Assembly (NCBI GenBank): GCA_902805545.1
Contig: CADCTD010000049.1
Span: 62,001-126,000 of the forward strand
Direction of reading: 5' to 3'
Length of the DNA stretch: 64,000 nt
From: an uncultured Craurococcus sp.
Lineage (GTDB): Bacteria; Pseudomonadota; Alphaproteobacteria; Acetobacterales; Acetobacteraceae
The notes beneath the pieces were generated by a model that was not told the origin of the DNA, made no database searches, and saw only the letters and a program-made list of their open reading frames with translations. A program made the position numbers and the translations under genes. Position 1 is the stretch's first letter. Each line of letters opens with the position of its first letter. Shown here piece after piece: positions 10,659-19,018 of this stretch.

Positions 10659-11050
10659 GTCTGGAAACCCTCCAGCCGCCGGGCTGGCCGCCGCCGAAGG
10701 GCTATGCGAATGGCATGGCCGGGCGGGGCAGGAACGTGCTCGTCGGCGGGCAGATCGGCTGGGATGCGGAGGGGCGCTTCGCCCAGGGTTTCCTCCGACA
10801 GGTGGAGCAGGCGCTACGCAACATCCTCGCCATCCTGGCGGAGGCGGGCGGCAGGCCGGAACATATCGGGCGGATGACCTGGTACGTCACCGACATGGCG
10901 GAGTACCGGGACAGCCTGCGGGCGCTCGGGCCGGTCTATCGCGCCGTGATGGGACGGCATTTCCCGGCGATGACGCTGGTGCAGGTGGTGGCGCTGGTGG
11001 AGCCGGAAGCGCGGGTCGAGATCGAGGCGACGGCGCTCATTCCGGAGTGA
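10655..11050 (+). CDS. RidA/YjgF-family protein (non-canonical)
   Basis: Rid-fold protein of 131 residues starting with GTG that overlaps the ligase stop (GTGA). Family features are GQIGWD, the central helix [24 protein letters not shown] and the C-terminal [12 protein letters not shown]. In canonical RidA the catalytic Arg lies in a FPARSCVEV-like strand; here that strand reads FPAMTLVQV, so the Arg is Met. It is therefore probably not a standard enamine/imine deaminase. Rid genes accompany amino-aromatic pathways, where they may act on the released amino intermediate, but this copy may bind rather than hydrolyse. Last gene of the plus-strand unit. Confidence 0.88.
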
Positions 11051-11405
11051 GCGGCGCCAGCATCTCGATAATGCGGCAGTTGGCTCCGGCGCGGCAGCGG
11101 CCGATCAGCTCCGCCAGCTCGTCGCGGAGCTTGGTGAGGCGCGGCGGGTGATAGGGTCGACTGCGTCGTAGGACCGGTCCCGCTCATCAGCGCGTCCGAG
11201 CAGCGCGGCACCTGGTCGAGCGGGAAGCCGAGGTCTCGCGCGCGGCGGATGAAGCTCAGCCGGCTGCGCTGGCCGGCGTCGTAGCTGCGGTAGTTGCCCG
11301 GGGTGCGGGCAGGCTCGGCAGCAGGCCGATTCGCCCGTAGTATAGGATGGTCTCTGCCTGGGTGCCCGTGGACCGCACCAGCGCGCCGATCGACAAGCCT
11401 TCCAT
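11038..11405 (-). pseudogene. MerR-family metal-responsive regulator, frameshifted remnant
   Basis: From ATG 11405 the frame reads MEGLSIGALVRSTG then ETILYYGRIGLLP, a MerR helix-turn-helix. It then leaves frame near 11315, where CCGAGCCT stands where CCGGAGCCT would be expected. The next frame gives PGNYRSYDAGQRSRLSF and RARDLGFPLDQV, breaking near 11207. The third gives LADERDRSYDAV-like sequence, breaking near 11141. The last gives KLRDELAELIGRCRAGANCR with the paired cysteines of metal-sensing MerR proteins, ending in TGA at 11038. All three breaks fit single-base losses in G/C runs, so sequencing error is possible. The divergent transporter and MerR-type promoter are intact. Confidence 0.85.
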
Positions 11406-11409
11406 CGCC

Positions 11410-11440
11410 TTGACCCTGTAGCCGCTACAGGCCCCAAAAT
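11410..11440 (+). promoter_or_regulatory. MerR-type promoter with 19-base spacer
   Basis: -35 TTGACC (11410-11415) and -10-like CAAAAT (11435-11440) are separated by 19 bases. Between them lies a perfect dyad, CCTGTAG and CTACAGG (11415-11431, 3-base centre). This overlong spacer with a central dyad is the hallmark of MerR-activated metal promoters. It drives the cation-efflux gene starting at 11476 and lies directly upstream of the merR remnant. Confidence 0.8.
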
Positions 11441-11475
11441 GGGCAGGCGCATCGGATAGGACGAGGTGAAACGCC

Positions 11476-12117
11476 ATGGCGGGATGCTGCGGGCCGCAGG
11501 GTTGCTCCCCCACCCCGTCGTTAGATTCGCCGCAGTGGCGGCGGGCCCTTTGGATCGCGCTGGCGGTGAATGCGGGCATGTTCCTCGCCGAGATCGGCGC
11601 GGGCGTGGCGGCGGGCTCGGCCTCCTTGCAGGCGGATGCGATCGACTTCCTGGGGGATTCGGCGAATTACGCCATCAGCCTCGGCGTGGCCGGCATGGTG
11701 CTGGCGTGGCGGGCGCGGGCGGCGCTGGTGAAGGGCTGGTCGCTCGGGCTGCTCGGGGCCGGGGTGCTGGCCTCGACCGCCTGGCACGCCCAGGCAGGGA
11801 GCCTGCCGGGGGCTGGGACGATGGGTGTCGTTGGGCTGCTGGCGCTTGCCGCCAATGCGGGGGTGGCGCTGATGCTGTACCGCTACCGCGAGGGCGATGC
11901 GAACATGCGCTCGGTCTGGATCTGCTCGCGCAACGACGCCATCGGCAACCTCGCCGTGCTGGCGGCGGCAGCGGGCGTCTTCGGCACGGGTACGGCCTGG
12001 CCGGACCTGATAGTCGCCACGGCCATGGCGGCGCTCGGGCTCAGCGGCGGGTGGCAGATCGTGCGGCAGGCGAGGGTGGAGCTACGGCTGCCGCAAGCCG
12101 TTGCAGCATCGCCCTGA
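11476..12117 (+). CDS. Cation efflux transporter, CDF-like
   Basis: Inner-membrane cation exporter of 213 residues with about six hydrophobic helices. The N terminus carries a short metal-binding-like segment MAGCCGPQGC. The substrate-site aspartates appear in DAIDFLGDS (helix 2) and RNDAIGNLAVL (helix 5), as in cation diffusion facilitators. The protein lacks the long cytoplasmic domain of CzcD, which is usual for the short family found beside merR genes. GAGG lies 9-12 bases upstream of the start. Metal unknown. Expression presumably needs the MerR partner, which looks broken here. Confidence 0.9.
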   Translation: MAGCCGPQGCSPTPSLDSPQWRRALWIALAVNAGMFLAEIGAGVAAGSASLQADAIDFLGDSANYAISLGVAGMVLAWRARAALVKGWSLGLLGAGVLASTAWHAQAGSLPGAGTMGVVGLLALAANAGVALMLYRYREGDANMRSVWICSRNDAIGNLAVLAAAAGVFGTGTAWPDLIVATAMAALGLSGGWQIVRQARVELRLPQAVAASP

Positions 12118-12126
12118 CCTGCGGCA

Positions 12127-12148
12127 CCCCGGGTGGTGCCACCCGGGG
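12127..12148. terminator. Hairpin between converging genes
   Basis: Perfect 10-base arms, CCCCGGGTGG and CCACCCGGGG, with a 2-base centre, starting 10 bases after the efflux gene stop and ending 17 bases before the stop of the converging small gene. No T-run follows. A bidirectional, G/C-rich terminator is the likely role. Confidence 0.55.
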
Positions 12149-12165
12149 CGATCGCGGGCCGGAGG

Positions 12166-12390
12166 TCAGATCGGGTTGGCGCCGGCCATAGGCTCGCCCT
12201 CGTCGGGCATCGCCTCGGTGACGGACATGCTCGCGGTGTCGTCCTTCCAGCTGTTGCGGCGCTTCATCGCCTGGCGGGCGAGGCAGGCGCCGCCGATCGC
12301 GGCCGCGCCGACGCCGATGCCGGTGAGGAAGGCGAAGCTGGCGACGATCATGCCGGTGGTGGTGGCGGCAGCGGCTGCGCGCATGAACAT
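12166..12390 (-). CDS. Small hypothetical membrane protein
   Basis: Predicted protein of 74 residues with a glycine/alanine-rich hydrophobic helix (TTTGMIVASFAFLTGIGVG then AAAIGG), a basic stretch ARQAMKRRNSW and an acidic tail. GGAG lies nine bases upstream of the ATG. The topology would leave the tail in the cytoplasm. It sits between the converging efflux gene and pqqE and has no recognised family. Codon-position bias looks coding, but so short a frame in this G+C content carries some doubt. Confidence 0.55.
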   Translation of the reverse strand: MFMRAAAAATTTGMIVASFAFLTGIGVGAAAIGGACLARQAMKRRNSWKDDTASMSVTEAMPDEGEPMAGANPI

Positions 12391-12414
12391 GGCGGATCTC
12401 CGTGAAGCGGCGTT

Positions 12415-13527
12415 TCAGCCTAGAGGTGGGACCGGCAGGGCAGGAGGCAAGCGGGCGGGCTCACGGTAGGTGAAGCCCTCCCCTGCCCTGTCGGAGGCGT
12501 CGAGCGCCTCGGCCAGCAACGCATGATGGGGCGAGAGGGCGCAGGCGGGGTCGGTCGCTGCCGCGTCGCCGGTGAGGGCGAAGGCCTGGCAGCGGCAACC
12601 GCCCCAGTCCTGCTCGGCACGCGCACAGCCCTGGCAGGGCGCGGGCATCCAGCCAGTGCCGCGGAAGCGGTTGAAGGCCTCCGAGGCTTCCCAGGCAGCG
12701 CGAAGGGTGGTGGTGCGGGCATCGGGGAAGTCGAAGCCGGGCAGGCTCTCCGCGGCATGGCAAGGCAGGATGCGGCCGGCGGGGGAGACGGCGAGGAAGC
12801 GCTGGCCCCAGCCGCCCATGCAGGATTTCGGCCGGGTGGCGTAGTAGTCGGGGACGACGTAGTCGATGACGAGGCGGCCGCGATGGGCAATGCGGGCGGC
12901 CTCGACGGCCGCCGTCGCGGCGTCGAGCTGGGTGCGGGTCGGCATCAGCGCGTCGCGGTTGGCAAGCGCCCAGCCGTAGTACTGGACATGGGCGACCTCC
13001 AGCCGGCCGGCGCCGAGCGCGAGGGCAAGGTCGATCATCGCCGGGAGGCGGTCGAGGTTCTGGCGGTGGACGACGGCGTTGAGGGTCAGCGGCAGCCCGG
13101 CCGCGGTGACGAGGCGGGCGAAATCGAGCTTCTTCGCGTGGCCGCCGCGATAGCCGCCGATGCGGTCGGCGGAGGCCGGCTCGGCATCCTGAACGGAGAG
13201 CTGCACGTGGTCGAGGCCGGCTGCGGCCAGCGCGTCGAGGCGGGTGCCGTTCAGCAGCACGCCGGAGGTGATGAGGTTGGTGTAGAGCCCGGCCTCGCTG
13301 GCGGCGCGGACGAGGTCGAGGATGTCGCGACGGGCGGTCGGCTCGCCGCCGGAGAGGTGGATCTGGAGGCAGCCGAGCTCCGCCGCCTCGACGAAGAGGC
13401 GGGACCAGGTCGCGGTGTCCAGCTCCTCGCCCGGGCGGGTGAGCGCGGTCGGGTTGGAGCAATAGGGGCAGCGCAGCGGGCAGCGATGGGTCAGCTCGGC
13501 CAGCAGGGCGAGCGGGGGAGCGGTCAT
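12415..13527 (-). CDS. pqqE: PQQ synthesis radical SAM enzyme PqqE
   Basis: Radical SAM/SPASM enzyme of 370 residues that joins Glu and Tyr side chains of the PqqA peptide, the first step to PQQ. The cluster-binding cysteines are C16, C20 and C23 (CPLRCPYC), followed by the SAM motif SGGEPTARRD. Auxiliary-cluster cysteines are in KSCMGGWG, ILPCHAAE, PCQGCARAEQDWGGC and CRCQAF. The ATG at 13527 overlaps the pqqD stop by four bases, giving a normal PqqE length; the frame is open further up but that would run into pqqD. Last gene of the PQQ unit. Confidence 0.97.
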   Translation of the reverse strand: MTAPPLALLAELTHRCPLRCPYCSNPTALTRPGEELDTATWSRLFVEAAELGCLQIHLSGGEPTARRDILDLVRAASEAGLYTNLITSGVLLNGTRLDALAAAGLDHVQLSVQDAEPASADRIGGYRGGHAKKLDFARLVTAAGLPLTLNAVVHRQNLDRLPAMIDLALALGAGRLEVAHVQYYGWALANRDALMPTRTQLDAATAAVEAARIAHRGRLVIDYVVPDYYATRPKSCMGGWGQRFLAVSPAGRILPCHAAESLPGFDFPDARTTTLRAAWEASEAFNRFRGTGWMPAPCQGCARAEQDWGGCRCQAFALTGDAAATDPACALSPHHALLAEALDASDRAGEGFTYREPARLPPALPVPPLG

Positions 13528-13793
13528 GCGGTGACAACGCCCTTCGCAGCCAAGTCGTCCAGCAGGCTGGTAATGTCGGCGAGGATTTCCTCGCGCGGGG
13601 CGGCATAGCGGGAGGCAAGCTCGTCGGCGATGGCTGCGAGGCTGCGGCTGCCGTCGAGCAGGCGGATGATCTCGAGGGCGATCTCGTCGGGGACGAACAT
13701 GCGCTCCGGGCCGAGGACGACCCATTGGGCGCGGGCCTTGTCCTCGCGGAGCTTCATGCCGCGGGCGAGTTTCGGGACCGTCTCCGGGCTCAC
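13524..13793 (-). CDS. pqqD: PqqA-binding chaperone PqqD
   Basis: RiPP recognition element protein of 89 residues that presents PqqA to PqqE. Family pattern is clear: MKLREDKARAQWVVLGPER, FVPDEIALEIIRLLDG, LAAIADELASRYAAPREEI and DLAAKGVV at the end. The start is taken as GTG at 13793 because it overlaps the pqqC stop (GTGA) and gives the usual length; the first ATG in frame would cut off part of the conserved N terminus. Its stop overlaps the pqqE ATG, so C, D and E are translationally coupled. Confidence 0.95.
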   Translation of the reverse strand: MSPETVPKLARGMKLREDKARAQWVVLGPERMFVPDEIALEIIRLLDGSRSLAAIADELASRYAAPREEILADITSLLDDLAAKGVVTA

Positions 13794-14518
13794 GGCCGGA
13801 AGGCGCCGGGCGGTGGCAGGCCAGGCTCCACATAGGCGAAGTGGAGCGCGTCGAGTTGGGCCCATAGCAGGTCGCATTTGAAGCGAAGGGCGGCGAGCAC
13901 CTGCTCCTGCTCGGCGCGGGTACGGGCCTCGCGCTTCACATAGGCCAGAGCGAAGTCGACATCCTGCGGCGCCTGGGTGAGGCGCGGGGTGAAGTAGGCG
14001 AGCGTCTCCGGCGAGACGAAGTCGTAGTTGCGGAGCATGCCGGAGACGCGCTGGGAGATGATCGCGGGCGAGAACATCTCGGTCAGCGAGGAGGCAACGG
14101 CTTCCAGCACCGAACGCGACCTCACGAAATTCACATAAGCGTCGACGGCAAAGCGGGTGGCGGGGAGCAGGCCCTCGAGCGAGACGACGTAGCCGCGGTC
14201 GAGGCCGAGGCCCTCGGTGAGTTTCAGCCAGCGCTCGATGCCGCCGGGATGGGTGCCGTCGCCGTCGTGGTCGACGATGCGGCGGCGCCATTCGCGGCGG
14301 AGCTCGGGCGTCGGCAGGCGGGCCAGCAGCGAGGCGTCCTTCGCCGGGATGCTGGCCTGGTAGTAGTAGCGGTTCAGCGCCCAGGCCTGGACCTGACCCT
14401 TCGTCAATTTCCCGCCATGCAGTAGGTGATGGAAGGGGTGGTGGACGTGGTAGCGCTCGGCGCCGATGGCCTCGAGCCGGGCGTGAAGCTCCTCGGGCGG
14501 AAGCAGCGCATCGGTCAT
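13790..14518 (-). CDS. pqqC: Pyrroloquinoline-quinone synthase PqqC
   Basis: Cofactor-free oxidase of 242 residues catalysing the last ring closure and oxidation to PQQ. Conserved segments are RYHVHHPFHHLLHGGKL, NRYYYQASIPAKDA, IVDHDGD and RNYDFVSPETLAYF; the histidines and Arg/Tyr of the active site are retained. It overlaps pqqB upstream (ATGA) and pqqD downstream. A separate gene here, not a pqqC/D fusion as in Methylorubrum. Confidence 0.97.
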   Translation of the reverse strand: MTDALLPPEELHARLEAIGAERYHVHHPFHHLLHGGKLTKGQVQAWALNRYYYQASIPAKDASLLARLPTPELRREWRRRIVDHDGDGTHPGGIERWLKLTEGLGLDRGYVVSLEGLLPATRFAVDAYVNFVRSRSVLEAVASSLTEMFSPAIISQRVSGMLRNYDFVSPETLAYFTPRLTQAPQDVDFALAYVKREARTRAEQEQVLAALRFKCDLLWAQLDALHFAYVEPGLPPPGAFRP

Positions 14519-15444
14519 GGGATGACCTCCATGCCGTCCTCAGCGACCTCCCATCCGGCGGCGAGGACTGCCTCGCGCTCGGGGCTGTCGTCCAGCAGGA
14601 CGGGGTTGGTGTTGTTCAGGTGGATGAGGATGCGGCGGCGGATGCCCAGGCTGCGGCAGGTGGCGAGGGCGCCCGCTGGCCCGTCGATGCTCATATGGCC
14701 CATCCGGGCACCGGTTTTGGGGCCGGCGCCGGCCAGGATCATCTCGTCGTCGCGCCAGAGCGTGCCGTCGAGGAAGAGGCAGTCGGCACCCCGGAGGCGG
14801 GCGGCGAGCGCCGGCGTCATCGCCGCGCAGCCGGGAATGAAGTGGAAGCCGCGGCCGCCGGCGGAGAGGCGGAGGCCAATGGTCTCGCCGTCATCGGCAC
14901 GGCCGGGATCGCCACCCTGCTCGGCGAAGAGCGGAACCTTGCCCGGGACGGCATAGGCCTCGACCGTCAGGCCGAGCGGCTTACCATCCGCCCCGGTCAA
15001 CGCCAGGGGCTCGCCGAGCGGCAGCGGACGGCGGGGAACGAGGCTGGGGTTCACCGCGAGAAAGATGGGGTTCGCCTCCAGGACCGCGAGGGATTGCGGA
15101 GAGCCGTAGAGGGCGAAGGCGTGGCGCTCCCGCATCGTCAGCAGGCCGGCGATGGTGTCGACCTCGGCGCCGGTCAGCACCACGGCGGCGACCGGGGAGT
15201 GGCGGATGGCGCCGCCCTGCGGCCGCGGGTGCAGCGCCGGCGTCGCCTGGAGCTGAGCGCGAAGATCGGGCGAGGCGTTGAGCAGCACCCAGCGCTCGCC
15301 ATCGGCCGTCACCGCCAGCGAGGCCTGGCTGCGGGGCCGTGCGGCGGGGTCGCCGGCGCGGGCGCGGAGGCAGCCTGGGCCGGCGGAATTCCATTGCGGG
15401 AAGCCGCCGCCGGCCGCGGCGCCGAGGACGATGGCGCGGAGCAT
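14515..15444 (-). CDS. pqqB: PQQ biosynthesis protein PqqB
   Basis: Metallo-beta-lactamase-fold protein of 309 residues, thought to hydroxylate or transport a PQQ intermediate. N terminus MLRAIVLGAAAGGGFPQWN and the segments PDLRAQL, AVVLTGAEVDTIAGLL, LFLDGTLWRDDEM and HLNNTNPVL match PqqB. As in other PqqB proteins the usual HxHxDH is altered (TGAEVD). It follows the cytochrome gene stop by eight bases, so it is transcribed with the dehydrogenase-cytochrome pair and not directly after pqqA. Confidence 0.96.
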   Translation of the reverse strand: MLRAIVLGAAAGGGFPQWNSAGPGCLRARAGDPAARPRSQASLAVTADGERWVLLNASPDLRAQLQATPALHPRPQGGAIRHSPVAAVVLTGAEVDTIAGLLTMRERHAFALYGSPQSLAVLEANPIFLAVNPSLVPRRPLPLGEPLALTGADGKPLGLTVEAYAVPGKVPLFAEQGGDPGRADDGETIGLRLSAGGRGFHFIPGCAAMTPALAARLRGADCLFLDGTLWRDDEMILAGAGPKTGARMGHMSIDGPAGALATCRSLGIRRRILIHLNNTNPVLLDDSPEREAVLAAGWEVAEDGMEVIP

Positions 15445-15452
15445 AGGGTGTT

Positions 15453-15791
15453 CTAACGCCCAGGGGGTGTCGCCGTCACCTCGATCGCGGCGTACCAGGC
15501 GGCGAGGTTGGCGATGTCGGTCTCGCTCAGCGCTGCGGCCATGAGGTTCATCTGCTCATGGAGGCGGACCTTGTCGCGGAAGGCGCGGAGCTGCTCGGCC
15601 AGGTAGGCGGGGTTCTGGCCGGCGAGGTTGGGCGCGTCCGGCTGCACGGCGATGCCGTCATTGCCGTGGCAGACGGCGCAGCGGCCGCCGGCGAGGCGCC
15701 GGCCGGCGCGGGCATCGCCCTCCTGCGCCCAGGCGGGGGCGAAGGCCGGGCTGGCCAGGAGCACGGCCAGCCCGAGACGTGCCAGCCGCAT
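15453..15791 (-). CDS. Periplasmic cytochrome c
   Basis: Single-haem c-type cytochrome of 112 residues. A signal peptide ends near residue 22 (FAPAWA-QEGD). The haem motif CAVCH is at 38-42 and the likely axial Met is in MNLMAAALSETDIANLAAWYA. The start overlaps the stop of the sugar dehydrogenase upstream (ATGA). That coupling suggests it takes electrons from the PQQ-type dehydrogenase in the periplasm and passes them to the respiratory chain. Confidence 0.93.
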   Translation of the reverse strand: MRLARLGLAVLLASPAFAPAWAQEGDARAGRRLAGGRCAVCHGNDGIAVQPDAPNLAGQNPAYLAEQLRAFRDKVRLHEQMNLMAAALSETDIANLAAWYAAIEVTATPPGR

Positions 15792-17155
15792 CAGCGCCGG
15801 CGGTCGTAGGAGATGCGATAGACGGCGCCGGCCATGTCGTCCGAGACCAGCAGGGAGCCGTCGCGCAGCATCGCCACGTCGACGGGGCGACCGAGATACT
15901 CGTTGGTCTCGGTGTCGAGCCAGCCCTCGGCGAAGGGCCGGTGCTCGCGCACGCTGCCGTCCTGGTTGAGGAAGGTCACCATGATGCGGGCGCCGATCGG
16001 CGTGGTGCGGTTCCAGGAGCCGTGCTGGGCGTTGAAGATGGCGCCGCGATACTCCTCCGGAAACATGCGGCCCTCGTAGAAGGTCAGGCCGAGATCGGCG
16101 GCATGCGGGGTGGTCTCGACCACGGGGGGAACGGTCTCAGCCGGGACCTGGGCGGTGCGGTACTCGTTGGTGCGGACGGTGCCGCCGCCATACCAGGGAA
16201 AGCCGAAATTCTGGTTGGCCGAGGTGATGCGGTTCAGCTCGCCGGGCGGGGTGTCGTCGCCCATGCCGTCGACCTGGTTGTCGGTGAACCAGAGCTCGGA
16301 GGTGTTCGGGCGGAAGGCGATGCCGACGCTGTTGCGGATGCCGCGCGCATAGACCTCGCGGTTCTGGCCGTTGCGGTCCATGCGGACGATGCCGGCCATG
16401 CCGACCTGGTTGAAGATCTCCATCTTCGCCTGCGTCGGCACGTTGAAGGGCTGGCCGAGCGAGATGTAGAGCTTGTTGTCCGGGCCGATGCGGCAGACGC
16501 GGGCGCCGTGGTTGAAGCTCTCCTCGGCCGCGGGAATCAGGCCGCCCTGCGGGACCACGACCTCGGCGGCGACGTCGGGCGTCTCGTAGAAGAACTCGGC
16601 GGCGGGGAAGGCAATGACGCGGTTGTGCTCGACGACGTGCAGGAAGCCGTCGGGCGAGAAGCAGAGGCCGTTCGGCACGCTGAACTGGATCGAAGGGGCG
16701 AAGACCTTCACCTCATCGGCGATGCGGTCGCGGTCGCGGTCAGTGACGGCCCAGACGCGCTGCTTGCGCGTGCCGACGAAGACGACGCCCGAGGAAGGGC
16801 CGACGGCGATGTGGCGGGCATCGGGCACCACCGCGAAGAGCTCGATCTTGAAGCCCTCGGGCAGGCGGATGGATTCGAGGTTGCGGCGCAGCGCGTCGGC
16901 GCGGCGGCCCTCCTGCGGCACGGTCTCGATCTGCATCGAGGTGCCGGTGGTGCGGAACTGGCCGAGGCGCTCGAGATTGTTCTGGCCGGCATTCGGCACG
17001 GGACCAGGGGGCGGGGGGCGGACTGCCGGGCTCGTCTCGCCGGGGACGGCGCCGCCGGTATTGGTGGTGGTCCGGCCCGGTTGGGCCTGGTTTTGGGCGA
17101 TCGCGGGCGCGGCCGCGACGATGGCCGCGCCGAGCAGGATGGCGAAATGCTTCAT
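15791..17155 (-). CDS. PQQ-dependent sugar (sorbosone-type) dehydrogenase
   Basis: Secreted soluble quinoprotein of 454 residues. The signal peptide ends near AIAQNQ at about residue 21, followed by a Pro/Thr-rich linker. The six-bladed propeller shows family marks: LPEGFKIELFA, GVVFVGTRKQRVWAV, VPNGLCFSPDG, ARGIRNSVGIAFRP, LWFTDNQVDGMGDD, HGSWNRT and GRPVDVAMLRDGSLLVSDD. It oxidises an aldose or related alcohol using PQQ. Start 17155 has GAGGG upstream. The next gene is its probable cytochrome partner. Its place inside a pqq locus supports PQQ use; the substrate is not known. Confidence 0.9.
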   Translation of the reverse strand: MKHFAILLGAAIVAAAPAIAQNQAQPGRTTTNTGGAVPGETSPAVRPPPPGPVPNAGQNNLERLGQFRTTGTSMQIETVPQEGRRADALRRNLESIRLPEGFKIELFAVVPDARHIAVGPSSGVVFVGTRKQRVWAVTDRDRDRIADEVKVFAPSIQFSVPNGLCFSPDGFLHVVEHNRVIAFPAAEFFYETPDVAAEVVVPQGGLIPAAEESFNHGARVCRIGPDNKLYISLGQPFNVPTQAKMEIFNQVGMAGIVRMDRNGQNREVYARGIRNSVGIAFRPNTSELWFTDNQVDGMGDDTPPGELNRITSANQNFGFPWYGGGTVRTNEYRTAQVPAETVPPVVETTPHAADLGLTFYEGRMFPEEYRGAIFNAQHGSWNRTTPIGARIMVTFLNQDGSVREHRPFAEGWLDTETNEYLGRPVDVAMLRDGSLLVSDDMAGAVYRISYDRRR

Positions 17156-17268
17156 TGGGTCCCTCTTCCCGCTTCCGCCCTCGGTGGCGGTTCGCTGGTC
17201 AGGGAGCATGAACGGGCAAGCGGCGGCGGCGGGATGACATGGCCGTGAGAGCCCGTTCGCGACAACGC

Positions 17269-17293
17269 CGTGCCCAGGGGTTGCCCGGGCACG
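17269..17293 (-). terminator. Hairpin between pqqA and the dehydrogenase gene
   Basis: Seven-base arms CGTGCCC and GGGCACG with an 11-base middle, 23 bases downstream of the pqqA stop on the minus strand. No T-run is seen. It may be a partial terminator or 3' stabiliser that lets pqqA be made in excess over the downstream genes, as reported for other pqq operons. Confidence 0.45.
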
Positions 17294-17315
17294 GCGCTGC
17301 TGTAGGCGTGGCGGC

Positions 17316-17396
17316 TTAGCCGATTTCGGCGCAGGCGTAGCTGTTGATTTCGAGGGCGAGCGAAATCTCGGTCACCCGCGGCTTCTTCCAGGCCAT
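17316..17396 (-). CDS. pqqA: PQQ precursor peptide PqqA
   Basis: Short peptide gene, 26 codons plus TAA. It begins MAWKKPRVTEISLALE and continues INSYACAEIG. Glu16 and Tyr20, separated by three residues, are the two side chains that become PQQ. GGAGG lies five bases before the ATG. It is the first gene of the PQQ locus; pqqB-E follow 1.9 kb downstream after the sugar dehydrogenase and cytochrome genes. The residues around the Glu/Tyr pair (EINSYACAE) match alphaproteobacterial PqqA. Confidence 0.96.
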   Translation of the reverse strand: MAWKKPRVTEISLALEINSYACAEIG

Positions 17397-17518
17397 GATA
17401 TCCTCCATGCGTAACGGTGCGCCTCAAATGTGGTGCACCCGGCGGCGATGAGCAAGCTTGAACCACGCGGCAGGCTTCCCCAGAACACCAGCATGAGCGT
17501 GAGGCAAGGAGCAAGGGC

Positions 17519-18547
17519 ATGAGCTACAGGGTCGCGGTCGTCGGCGCCACCGGTGCGGTGGGGCGCGAGATGCTGAAGACCCTGGCGGAGCGGGACTTCC
17601 CTGTCCGCGAGGTGGTGGCGCTGGCCTCGGCGCGGTCGGTCGGGGCGGAGGTCTCCTTCGGCGAGAAGTCGGTGCTGAAGGTGAAGAGCCTCGACAGCTT
17701 CGACTTCAAAGGGATGGATATCGCGCTGTTCTCGCCGGGCGCGGCGATCTCGGCCGTGCATGCGCCGCGGGCGGCGGCGGCGGGGTGCCTCGTGATCGAC
17801 AATACGAGCCGCTTCCGCATGGATCACGACGTGCCGCTGGTGGTGCCGGAGGTCAATCCGCAGGCGTTGAAGCGTCTGGGCAAGCGGGGGATCATCGCCA
17901 ACCCGAACTGCTCCACCATCCAGATGGTGGTGGCGCTGAAGCCGCTGCAGGACATCGCGCGCATCAGGCGCGTCGTCGTCTCGACCTACCAGTCGGTGAG
18001 CGGCGCGGGGAAGGAGGGGATGGACGAGCTCTTCAACCAGACCCGCGCCATCTACGTGAACGACGCGACGGTGCCGGAGCAGTTCCCCAAGCCGATTGCC
18101 TTCAACGTCATCCCGCATATCGACGTCTTCCAGGAGGACGGGGAGACGAAGGAGGAGTGGAAAATGGCGGTGGAGACGCGGAAGATCCTCGACCCGGACA
18201 TCGCCGTCATCGCCACCTGCGTGCGGGTGCCGGTCTTCGTCGGGCATGCGGAGGCGGTGCATGTCGAGTTCGAGGGGCCGATCTCGGTCGAAGAGGCCAT
18301 CGAGGCGCTGCGGGATGCGCCGGGGGTGCAACTCGTCGACAAGCGGGAGGATGGCGGCTACGTCACGCCGATCGATGCGGCGGGGGAGGATGCGGTCTTC
18401 GTCAGCCGGCTGCGGCGCGACCCGACGGTGCCGCACGGCCTCGCCTTCTGGTGCGTCAGCGACAACCTGCGCAAGGGGGCGGCGCTGAACGCGGTGCAGA
18501 TCGCCGAGCTCGTCGTGGAACAGGGGATCGTGGAGGGGAGGCGCTGA
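17519..18547 (+). CDS. asd: Aspartate-semialdehyde dehydrogenase
   Basis: Enzyme of 342 residues reducing aspartyl phosphate to aspartate semialdehyde with NADPH, the branch point to Lys/diaminopimelate, Met and Thr. The cofactor motif GATGAVG is at residues 9-15. The catalytic nucleophile is Cys131 in NPNCSTIQ, and phosphate/substrate segments SVSGAGKEGMDEL and RVPVFVGHAEAV are present. AAGGAGCAAGGG precedes the ATG. Transcribed alone, divergent from pqqA. Core metabolism, with no sign of transfer. Confidence 0.97.
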   Translation: MSYRVAVVGATGAVGREMLKTLAERDFPVREVVALASARSVGAEVSFGEKSVLKVKSLDSFDFKGMDIALFSPGAAISAVHAPRAAAAGCLVIDNTSRFRMDHDVPLVVPEVNPQALKRLGKRGIIANPNCSTIQMVVALKPLQDIARIRRVVVSTYQSVSGAGKEGMDELFNQTRAIYVNDATVPEQFPKPIAFNVIPHIDVFQEDGETKEEWKMAVETRKILDPDIAVIATCVRVPVFVGHAEAVHVEFEGPISVEEAIEALRDAPGVQLVDKREDGGYVTPIDAAGEDAVFVSRLRRDPTVPHGLAFWCVSDNLRKGAALNAVQIAELVVEQGIVEGRR

Positions 18548-18556
18548 GCGCCCCCG

Positions 18557-19018
18557 TCAGGCGATCGGGTCGAGGACGACGACAGGGATCTCGCGGTCGG
18601 TCTTCGTCGCGTAGTCGGCATAGGGCGGCCAGAAGGTCAGGGCGAGGTCCCAGAGGCGGGCGCGCTCCTCGCCGGAGACGGTGCGGGCGCGGACACGCAG
18701 GTGCTCGGTGCCGACCTGGATCTCGGCCTCCGGACTGGCGAGCAGGTTCTTGTACCAGCCGGGATGGTCCGGTGCGCCGCCCTTCGAGGCGACGATGACA
18801 TAGCCCTCGCCCGCGCGGCCGTAGAAGAGCGGGAAGATGAAGCGCTCGCCCGACTTGCGGCCGGTGGTGGTCAACAGCAGGGAGGGGACGGTCATCTCGC
18901 CATAGCCGGCGGGCGCGATGGTGTACATGTGGCCGTCCGTGCCGCCGCTCGAGAGGTAGCGGTTGATGTGGTCCAGCATCCATCCCGGGAGGTTGGGGGC
19001 GATCTTGGCGTCGGGCAT
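18557..19018 (-). CDS. Nitroreductase family deazaflavin-dependent oxidoreductase
   Basis: Protein of 153 residues of the Ddn/split-barrel family. Marks are LLLTTTGRKSGERFIFPLFYG, YVIVASKGGAPDHPGWYKNLLASPEAEIQVG, which bind the 5-deazaflavin phosphate in F420-using relatives. Whether this organism makes F420 cannot be seen here; some members may use FMN. The ribosome-binding GGAG lies inside the 3' arm of an 11-base hairpin just upstream. Converges on asd with nine bases between stops. Confidence 0.87.
   Translation of the reverse strand: MPDAKIAPNLPGWMLDHINRYLSSGGTDGHMYTIAPAGYGEMTVPSLLLTTTGRKSGERFIFPLFYGRAGEGYVIVASKGGAPDHPGWYKNLLASPEAEIQVGTEHLRVRARTVSGEERARLWDLALTFWPPYADYATKTDREIPVVVLDPIA

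Follow-up and report, generated by a model that had tools for sequence, protein, structure and literature searches.

Why should genes for a probable sugar dehydrogenase and a cytochrome c lie among the genes for synthesis of pyrroloquinoline quinone (PQQ), separating pqqA, which encodes the precursor peptide, from pqqB? This arrangement occurs in a 64,000-nucleotide stretch (here termed the window) of contig CADCTD010000049.1 (positions 62,001 to 126,000; GenBank assembly GCA_902805545.1), which is part of the 4.5-Mb draft genome (G000) of an uncultured Craurococcus sp. of the family Acetobacteraceae. On the minus strand, the genes run pqqA, dehydrogenase, cytochrome c, and pqqB-C-D-E, and the order and coordinates given by an initial annotation of the sequence proved right (Table 1). 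Our reading, to which we assign a probability of about 0.7, is that a dehydrogenase-cytochrome pair of the AA12 type was inserted between pqqA and pqqB and is expressed together with pqqBCDE. The parts of the locus are all of known kinds; the arrangement itself is uncommon, and no description of the order pqqA-dehydrogenase-cytochrome-pqqB was found in the open-access literature, as judged by titles and the openings of abstracts.

The position of the pair was compared across a family sample of 120 genomes, including 73 with pqqB and 63 with a relative of the dehydrogenase (E <= 1e-20). The 73 pqqB stretches, i.e., the window and the surroundings of 72 other pqqB genes, some of them cut by contig ends, contain pqqA upstream on the pqqB strand in 62 cases and on the other strand in 2 cases; pqqA was not found in 9 of the 73. 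The gap between pqqA and pqqB measures at most 464 nucleotides (nt) in 61 of the 62 stretches and 1,871 nt, with two genes, in the window, so that the usual order assumed initially (pqqB directly after pqqA) holds in the family. A survey of related genomes for the window's order had also been proposed. Ten ortholog queries were compared with the contigs of 84,980 species, and the best 80 loci were examined; the order asd, pqqA-dehydrogenase-cytochrome-pqqB-C-D-E is shared by Belnapia rosea, Belnapia moabensis, Belnapia arida, Paeniroseomonas aquatica, and Roseicella aerolata (L144 to L148). Among the 73 family pqqB loci and the best 80 ortholog loci, only these five and the window place the pair between pqqA and pqqB. 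The recurrence in five named genomes, together with low ratios of nonsynonymous to synonymous substitution (dN/dS; see below), indicates that the order is more than chance. The asd neighbor is common to family loci with and without the pair, and because seven loci flanked by asd (G024, G028, G047, G063, G088, G112, and G115) proceed directly from pqqA to pqqB, the pair looks like a later addition to the pqq locus.

Two further genomes bear on the history of this addition. In Roseomonas pecuniae, the pair has no pqq neighbor, and the pqq locus is an uninterrupted pqqA-B-C-D-E. The metagenome-assembled genome (MAG) AVDCRST_MAG04 (L077/L150, taken to be the same genome as G075) contains an eroded locus with the order asd, dehydrogenase-cytochrome-pqqB-small gene, on one contig without N and with no pqqA, pqqC, pqqD, or pqqE there; pqqA' and pqqE' lie at other sites in this 77% complete genome, in which no pqqC was found. 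In a 54-sequence tree, the window joins B. rosea, followed by the remaining Belnapia species, Paeniroseomonas, and Roseicella (support for the six rows, 98/91), the eroded MAG pairs with R. pecuniae (96/89), and all eight form one group (94/98, just below the program's star). Since R. pecuniae pairs with the eroded MAG, the tree leaves both options for R. pecuniae (linkage lost or never present), and a single insertion followed by relocation in R. pecuniae and two separate events both fit the data.

Across Alpha- and Betaproteobacteria, the dehydrogenase and cytochrome genes commonly occur as a pair, in most cases with no pqq genes nearby. Among the best 80 ortholog loci, a cytochrome c gene lies within 900 nt 3' of the dehydrogenase in 75 of the 79 with enough sequence, and 70 show no pqq gene in the stretch around the pair (up to 8 kb on each side, less at contig ends). 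Other pqq-linked arrangements occur in 4 of the 80: the pair is convergent with pqqBCDE in L153 and L201, lies 3' of pqqE in L212, and has pqqA after its cytochrome in L190 (Azospirillum rugosum). In G114, a member of the family sample, the pair is divergent from pqqA. Twelve of 334 matching plasmid records carry the dehydrogenase at 60 to 80% identity, and an annotated cytochrome adjoins it on plasmids of Caballeronia and Paracoccus sanguinis. Both genes of the pair are under purifying selection, with dN/dS values between the window and Belnapia of 0.125 to 0.140 for the dehydrogenase, 0.043 to 0.120 for the cytochrome, and 0.218 to 0.241 for pqqB; the window dehydrogenase is 93% identical to its B. 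rosea ortholog. The cytochrome carries one CxxCH motif (CAVCH) and a cytochrome c family match, and its best match in the PDB is cytochrome c4.

The initial annotation had labeled the dehydrogenase "sorbosone-type." This label turned out to be poorly supported, as it rests on a partial Pfam match to GSDH (PF07995; 50.8 bits against a cut-off of 25) that covers only positions 107 to 274 of the 332-position profile, and the nearest solved relatives are AA12 pyranose dehydrogenases, i.e., CcPDH of Coprinopsis cinerea and TrAA12 of Trichoderma reesei. When a profile of 25 homologs was compared with solved structures, AA12 enzymes ranked first (6h7t, 1.1e-18; 6jt5, 2e-15). A model predicted from 45 sequences (mean predicted local distance difference test [pLDDT] score, 82.3; residues 1 to 57, <50) likewise had TrAA12 (6h7t) as its top match (Z, 37.5; root mean square deviation [rmsd], 2.8; 345 residues aligned) and also matched CcPDH (6jt5; Z, 36.8; rmsd, 2.9; 342 aligned), with the glucose and aldose dehydrogenases 1CQ1, 2G8S, and 3A9G scoring below AA12 (Z, 29.9, 31.2, and 33.4, respectively). 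Excerpts of PMC6881789 give the PQQ contacts of CcPDH as R273, H363, R430, N431, H539, H560, W563, N564, and R621. These nine residues align to R114, H216, R274, N275, H351, H378, W381, N382, and R423 of the window protein (M1 at base 17155), and all nine, catalytic His/Arg/Asn included, are invariant across the 45 sequences; the Ca2+ ligand Asp451 of CcPDH is kept as D296. This conservation of the AA12 PQQ contacts supports the initial suggestion of a likely PQQ-using enzyme. It is very improbable that the protein has lost PQQ use and become a beta-propeller relative such as a lactonase: lactonases also match the fold, but at lower scores, the AA12 enzymes standing far above the best of them (Z, 37.5 versus 26.1), and the invariance of the nine contacts, catalytic residues among them, speaks against such a loss.

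The window enzyme differs from the AA12 enzymes in being bacterial (approximately 20% identity), in having one Ca2+ ligand changed, and in having a separate c-type cytochrome as its partner, not a fused b-type domain; CcPDH is reported in passages of PMC6881789 and PMC4332668 to transfer electrons to its cytochrome domain. It shares its fold and catalytic His/Arg/Asn with the soluble glucose and aldose sugar dehydrogenases. In soluble glucose dehydrogenase, Lys377 binds PQQ, whereas AA12 enzymes and the window protein have an HGSWNR loop instead (excerpts of PMC6881789). The literature passages describe a homolog with 2-keto-D-glucose dehydrogenase activity (PMC6881789) and list D-glucosone among the substrates of CcPDH (PMC4332668), and for these reasons an osone or an aldose is a fair guess, no more, at the substrate. 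No tested member of the AA12-like branch across Alpha- and Betaproteobacteria was found in the open-access literature searched. The longest open reading frame of the dehydrogenase (472 amino acids [aa]; ATG 17209) begins within the conserved element described below; ATG 17155 (454 aa) is the likelier start, to judge from the signal peptide and ribosome-site-like bases. The signal peptides of the dehydrogenase and the cytochrome were judged by eye.

Is this enzyme tied to a local supply of PQQ? A dehydrogenase relative and pqqB occur together in 51 of the 120 family genomes; another 12 have the dehydrogenase only, 22 have pqqB only, and 35 have neither. The one same-genus genome of the sample yielded neither pqqB, pqqE, nor the dehydrogenase. 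A dehydrogenase relative lies within 3.1 kb of pqqB in 14 of the 73 pqqB loci (the window and G075 included), whereas a rough estimate, which assumes 106 table rows, 17 kb, and a mean genome size of 4.4 Mb, would predict about 0.4; the Fisher and Poisson values take no account of relatedness. The initial annotation had joined the cofactor supply, its user, and the electron acceptor in one transcriptional unit. This proposal stands in part: because the PQQ contacts are kept, the cytochrome regularly follows the dehydrogenase, and adjacency to pqq genes far exceeds the rough chance estimate, the three plausibly belong together. A single transcriptional unit of seven genes appears doubtful, because a strong hairpin follows pqqA and the element in front of the dehydrogenase is found in front of an unlinked pair as well.

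The junctions frame this doubt. Overlaps had been noted at most junctions, and four of the six between pqqA and pqqE do overlap, with 4-nt ATGA/GTGA overlaps at pqqB/pqqC, pqqC/pqqD, and pqqD/pqqE and a 1-nt TGATG overlap between the dehydrogenase and the cytochrome; the cytochrome and pqqB are separated by 8 nt, and the first junction, from pqqA to the dehydrogenase, is open (160 nt). The hairpin after pqqA is strong in a family-wide comparison (z, -5.6). Hairpins follow pqqA in all five named relatives, with T5 after them in L147 and L148, and T-runs follow in several family loci, P. aquatica and R. aerolata included. Family-wide, 40 of 64 loci have a best hairpin of z <= -2 after pqqA, compared with 2 of the 64 control stretches taken 500 nt further on. 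Inheritance of the window hairpin from its seven closest uninserted loci is not claimed, as the hairpins of these loci, measured against composition-matched shuffles, have z values of +0.5 to -1.0 in six cases and -2.6 in one. The pqqA transcript is present in excess in Methylobacterium. The candidate pqqA promoter has CTTG..CA(C/G)TAT-like counterparts in the relatives, and an Rfam scan of positions 11000 to 19000 identified no family.

The conserved element, TGTCA(A/T)-N22/23-CATGCT, lies 3' of the hairpin and is common to the window, the three Belnapia, Paeniroseomonas, and Roseicella. Among 89 upstream regions, its strict form is confined to those of the 6 inserted loci and is absent from the other 83. 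The CATGCT box ends the element 47 to 58 nt before the aligned dehydrogenase start in five loci; in P. aquatica, it lies further upstream of the aligned start, which is not the start codon there. The B. moabensis element recurs upstream of the unlinked pair of R. pecuniae, matching at 29 of 30 positions and with the same spacing (maximum of 300 random scores, 21), in a post hoc test, as the element was noticed by reading the upstream sequence and scored afterwards. Because R. pecuniae has the element while its pair has no pqq neighbor, the element goes with the pair and not with pqqA. In addition to a promoter before pqqA, the hairpin and the pair-linked element suggest, at the level of sequence, a second one. 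CATGCT alone is enriched upstream of orthologs (23 occurrences against 5.7 expected), but its matches outside the clade do not line up, and nothing is concluded from it.

Several observations weigh against an inserted pair that uses local PQQ and is expressed with pqqBCDE. As regards the cofactor, the CcPDH Ca2+ ligand Ser449 is replaced by Gln294. Among the 63 dehydrogenase-positive family genomes, 12 lack pqqB and also pqqE at E <= 1e-60; pqqE is missing at E <= 1e-80 from 6 of 30 named genomes with the dehydrogenase; and an ortholog of 76% identity is retained in G102, where no pqqB, pqqC, or pqqE was found. Since such genomes exist, the pair appears to persist without PQQ synthesis of its own in some of them; passages of PMC12124388 state that PQQ synthesis is lacking in many Gram-negative bacteria that have PQQ enzymes and that the known PQQ importer is largely absent from Alphaproteobacteria. 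The pair could thus be a bystander that landed by chance, its enzyme independent of the local pqq genes, as would also suit the other likely PQQ users of the window genome (two quinoprotein alcohol dehydrogenases that exceed the family cut-off and, elsewhere in the genome, three more proteins matching GSDH). We consider this improbable in view of the excess of family members near pqqB, the several different pqq-linked arrangements, and the order kept in six genomes.

As regards expression, no promoter emerged from a sigma-70 consensus scan, whose three terminator-like sites all map to the plus strand; the 23-nt spacing of the element misfits an ordinary sigma-70 promoter; the eroded MAG matches the element at only 18 of 30 positions (random 99% level, 20), so that it is not recognizable there; and, according to the review PMC8102297, reporter results suggest that PpqqA is the sole pqqABCDE promoter in Gluconobacter oxydans. 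Given this last point, read-through from pqqA is quite possible, and in a plain operon, PpqqA would drive all seven genes through the hairpin, leaving the box pair as an mRNA feature or a relic. Such an operon is a serious contender, if short of even odds: the tight junctions from the dehydrogenase to pqqE suit it, and hairpins precede ordinary pqqB genes family-wide and are therefore compatible with pqqB expression, but the near-complete element of R. pecuniae, where no pqqA precedes the pair, the strength of the window hairpin, and the T5 runs of two relatives do not. Two units could be envisaged instead, with pqqA ending at the hairpin and dehydrogenase-cytochrome-pqqBCDE under the pair's promoter, which would place cofactor synthesis under the enzyme's control. 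We give this reading about the same odds as the plain operon; the hairpin, the 160-nt gap, and the element common to the unlinked pair argue for it, and the lack of a known factor for the element, its odd spacing, and the consensus scan argue against it. Rather unlikely, in our estimate, is a capture of pqqBCDE by the pair's own control element, with pqqA supplied from its own short transcript and the PQQ-making enzymes coinduced with the dehydrogenase. If true, cofactor synthesis would answer to the substrate of the client enzyme, and the eroded MAG would represent a later step, with PqqB tied to the enzyme and not to the pathway.

In the favored reading, i.e., insertion of the pair and joint expression with pqqBCDE, a preexisting pair would have entered the pqqA-pqqB gap in an ancestor of Belnapia, Paeniroseomonas, and Roseicella, bringing its own control region. 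A periplasmic AA12-type dehydrogenase would oxidize a sugar (aldose or 2-keto-aldose) with PQQ and Ca2+, and electrons would pass to the one-heme cytochrome c and on to the respiratory chain. pqqA would keep its own promoter, and the hairpin would probably stop many transcripts, so that the precursor peptide could be made in excess. Read-through from pqqA, the pair's control element, or both would express the dehydrogenase, cytochrome, and pqqBCDE together, and the enzyme and cofactor-making proteins would therefore rise and fall together. According to passages of PMC10715153, Acetobacteraceae other than the acetous group have few PQQ-dependent dehydrogenases, although PQQ operons are widespread among them; the locus names a likely PQQ user in nonacetous Acetobacteraceae, from an AA12-like branch of Alpha- and Betaproteobacteria. 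It is also a natural case in which a cofactor pathway and a client enzyme may have fused into one control unit.

Compared with the canonical pqqABCDE operon of Acetobacteraceae, the window has the same five genes in otherwise the same order, the asd neighbor seen in seven relatives, and the hairpin after pqqA; it differs in the two genes between pqqA and pqqB, in the possible second control element, and in an extra small gene after pqqE, which some relatives without the insertion also have. Clustering of a PQQ-using enzyme with PQQ synthesis genes is likewise seen in family members and in Pseudomonas, where the pqq operon is described as lying inside the ped cluster. In the examples examined, the enzymes flank the pqq genes, whereas the window enzyme splits pqqA from pqqB.

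Table 1. Features of the pqq locus and its surroundings (window coordinates)
Feature	Position	Strand	Evidence
Conserved 74-aa small protein, 24 nt 3' of pqqE	12166..12390	-	Relatives beside pqq genes in other loci
pqqE	12415..13527	-	TIGR02109, 546.7 bits (cut-off 381.35)
pqqD, GTG start	13524..13793	-	TIGR03859, 75.3 bits (cut-off 46)
pqqC	13790..14518	-	TIGR02111, 376.8 bits (cut-off 240)
pqqB	14515..15444	-	TIGR02108, 374 bits (cut-off 245)
One-heme cytochrome c (CAVCH), 112 aa, signal peptide, c4/c554-like	15453..15791	-	PF00034, 33.6 bits (cut-off 21.3)
AA12/GSDH-type PQQ dehydrogenase, 454 aa, signal peptide	15791..17155	-	PF07995, 50.8 bits; AA12 structures top by profile and fold
Conserved pair of boxes 5' of the dehydrogenase; candidate promoter/operator belonging to the gene pair	17202..17249	-	Strict form in 6/89 upstream regions
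17-bp hairpin after pqqA stop, probable partial terminator or processing site	17262..17300	-	Fold z, -3.5
pqqA, 26-aa PQQ precursor peptide, EINSY core	17316..17396	-	TIGR02107, 39.6 bits (cut-off 20); PF08042, 28.8 bits (cut-off 21.1)
Candidate pqqA promoter, CTTGCT-N18-CACATT	17427..17456	-	Putative; by eye in asd-pqqA gaps of the window and L144 to L148
asd, aspartate-semialdehyde dehydrogenase, divergent, synteny anchor	17519..18547	+	PF02774 and PF01118

All five Pqq proteins score above the cut-offs of the matching NCBIfam equivalogs. The small protein has no Pfam or NCBIfam match; relatives of its gene lie 3' of pqqE in L144 to L147, G024, and G088 and 3' of pqqB in G075, none was seen in L148, and it is possibly the last gene of the pqq unit. 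Two loci of the same genus (L075 and L081) have pqqA-pqqB gaps of 362 and 337 nt, compared with a median of 70 nt. The window genome also encodes a paralog of the dehydrogenase (G000:C143:40640-41677; 42% identical), which is likewise accompanied by a cytochrome, and in R. pecuniae, another dehydrogenase relative and its cytochrome are convergent to pqqE (L232). A second pqqA'-pqqE' pair in the window genome (G000:C190, L138, 13323-14649) has no pqqB, pqqC, or pqqD beside it, shows a hairpin 3' of pqqA' by eye, and lies approximately 5.6 kb from a quinoprotein alcohol dehydrogenase gene (TIGR03075 match). G075 has the same pqqA'-pqqE' pair (L139), and A. rugosum has a pqqA-pqqE pair (L234).

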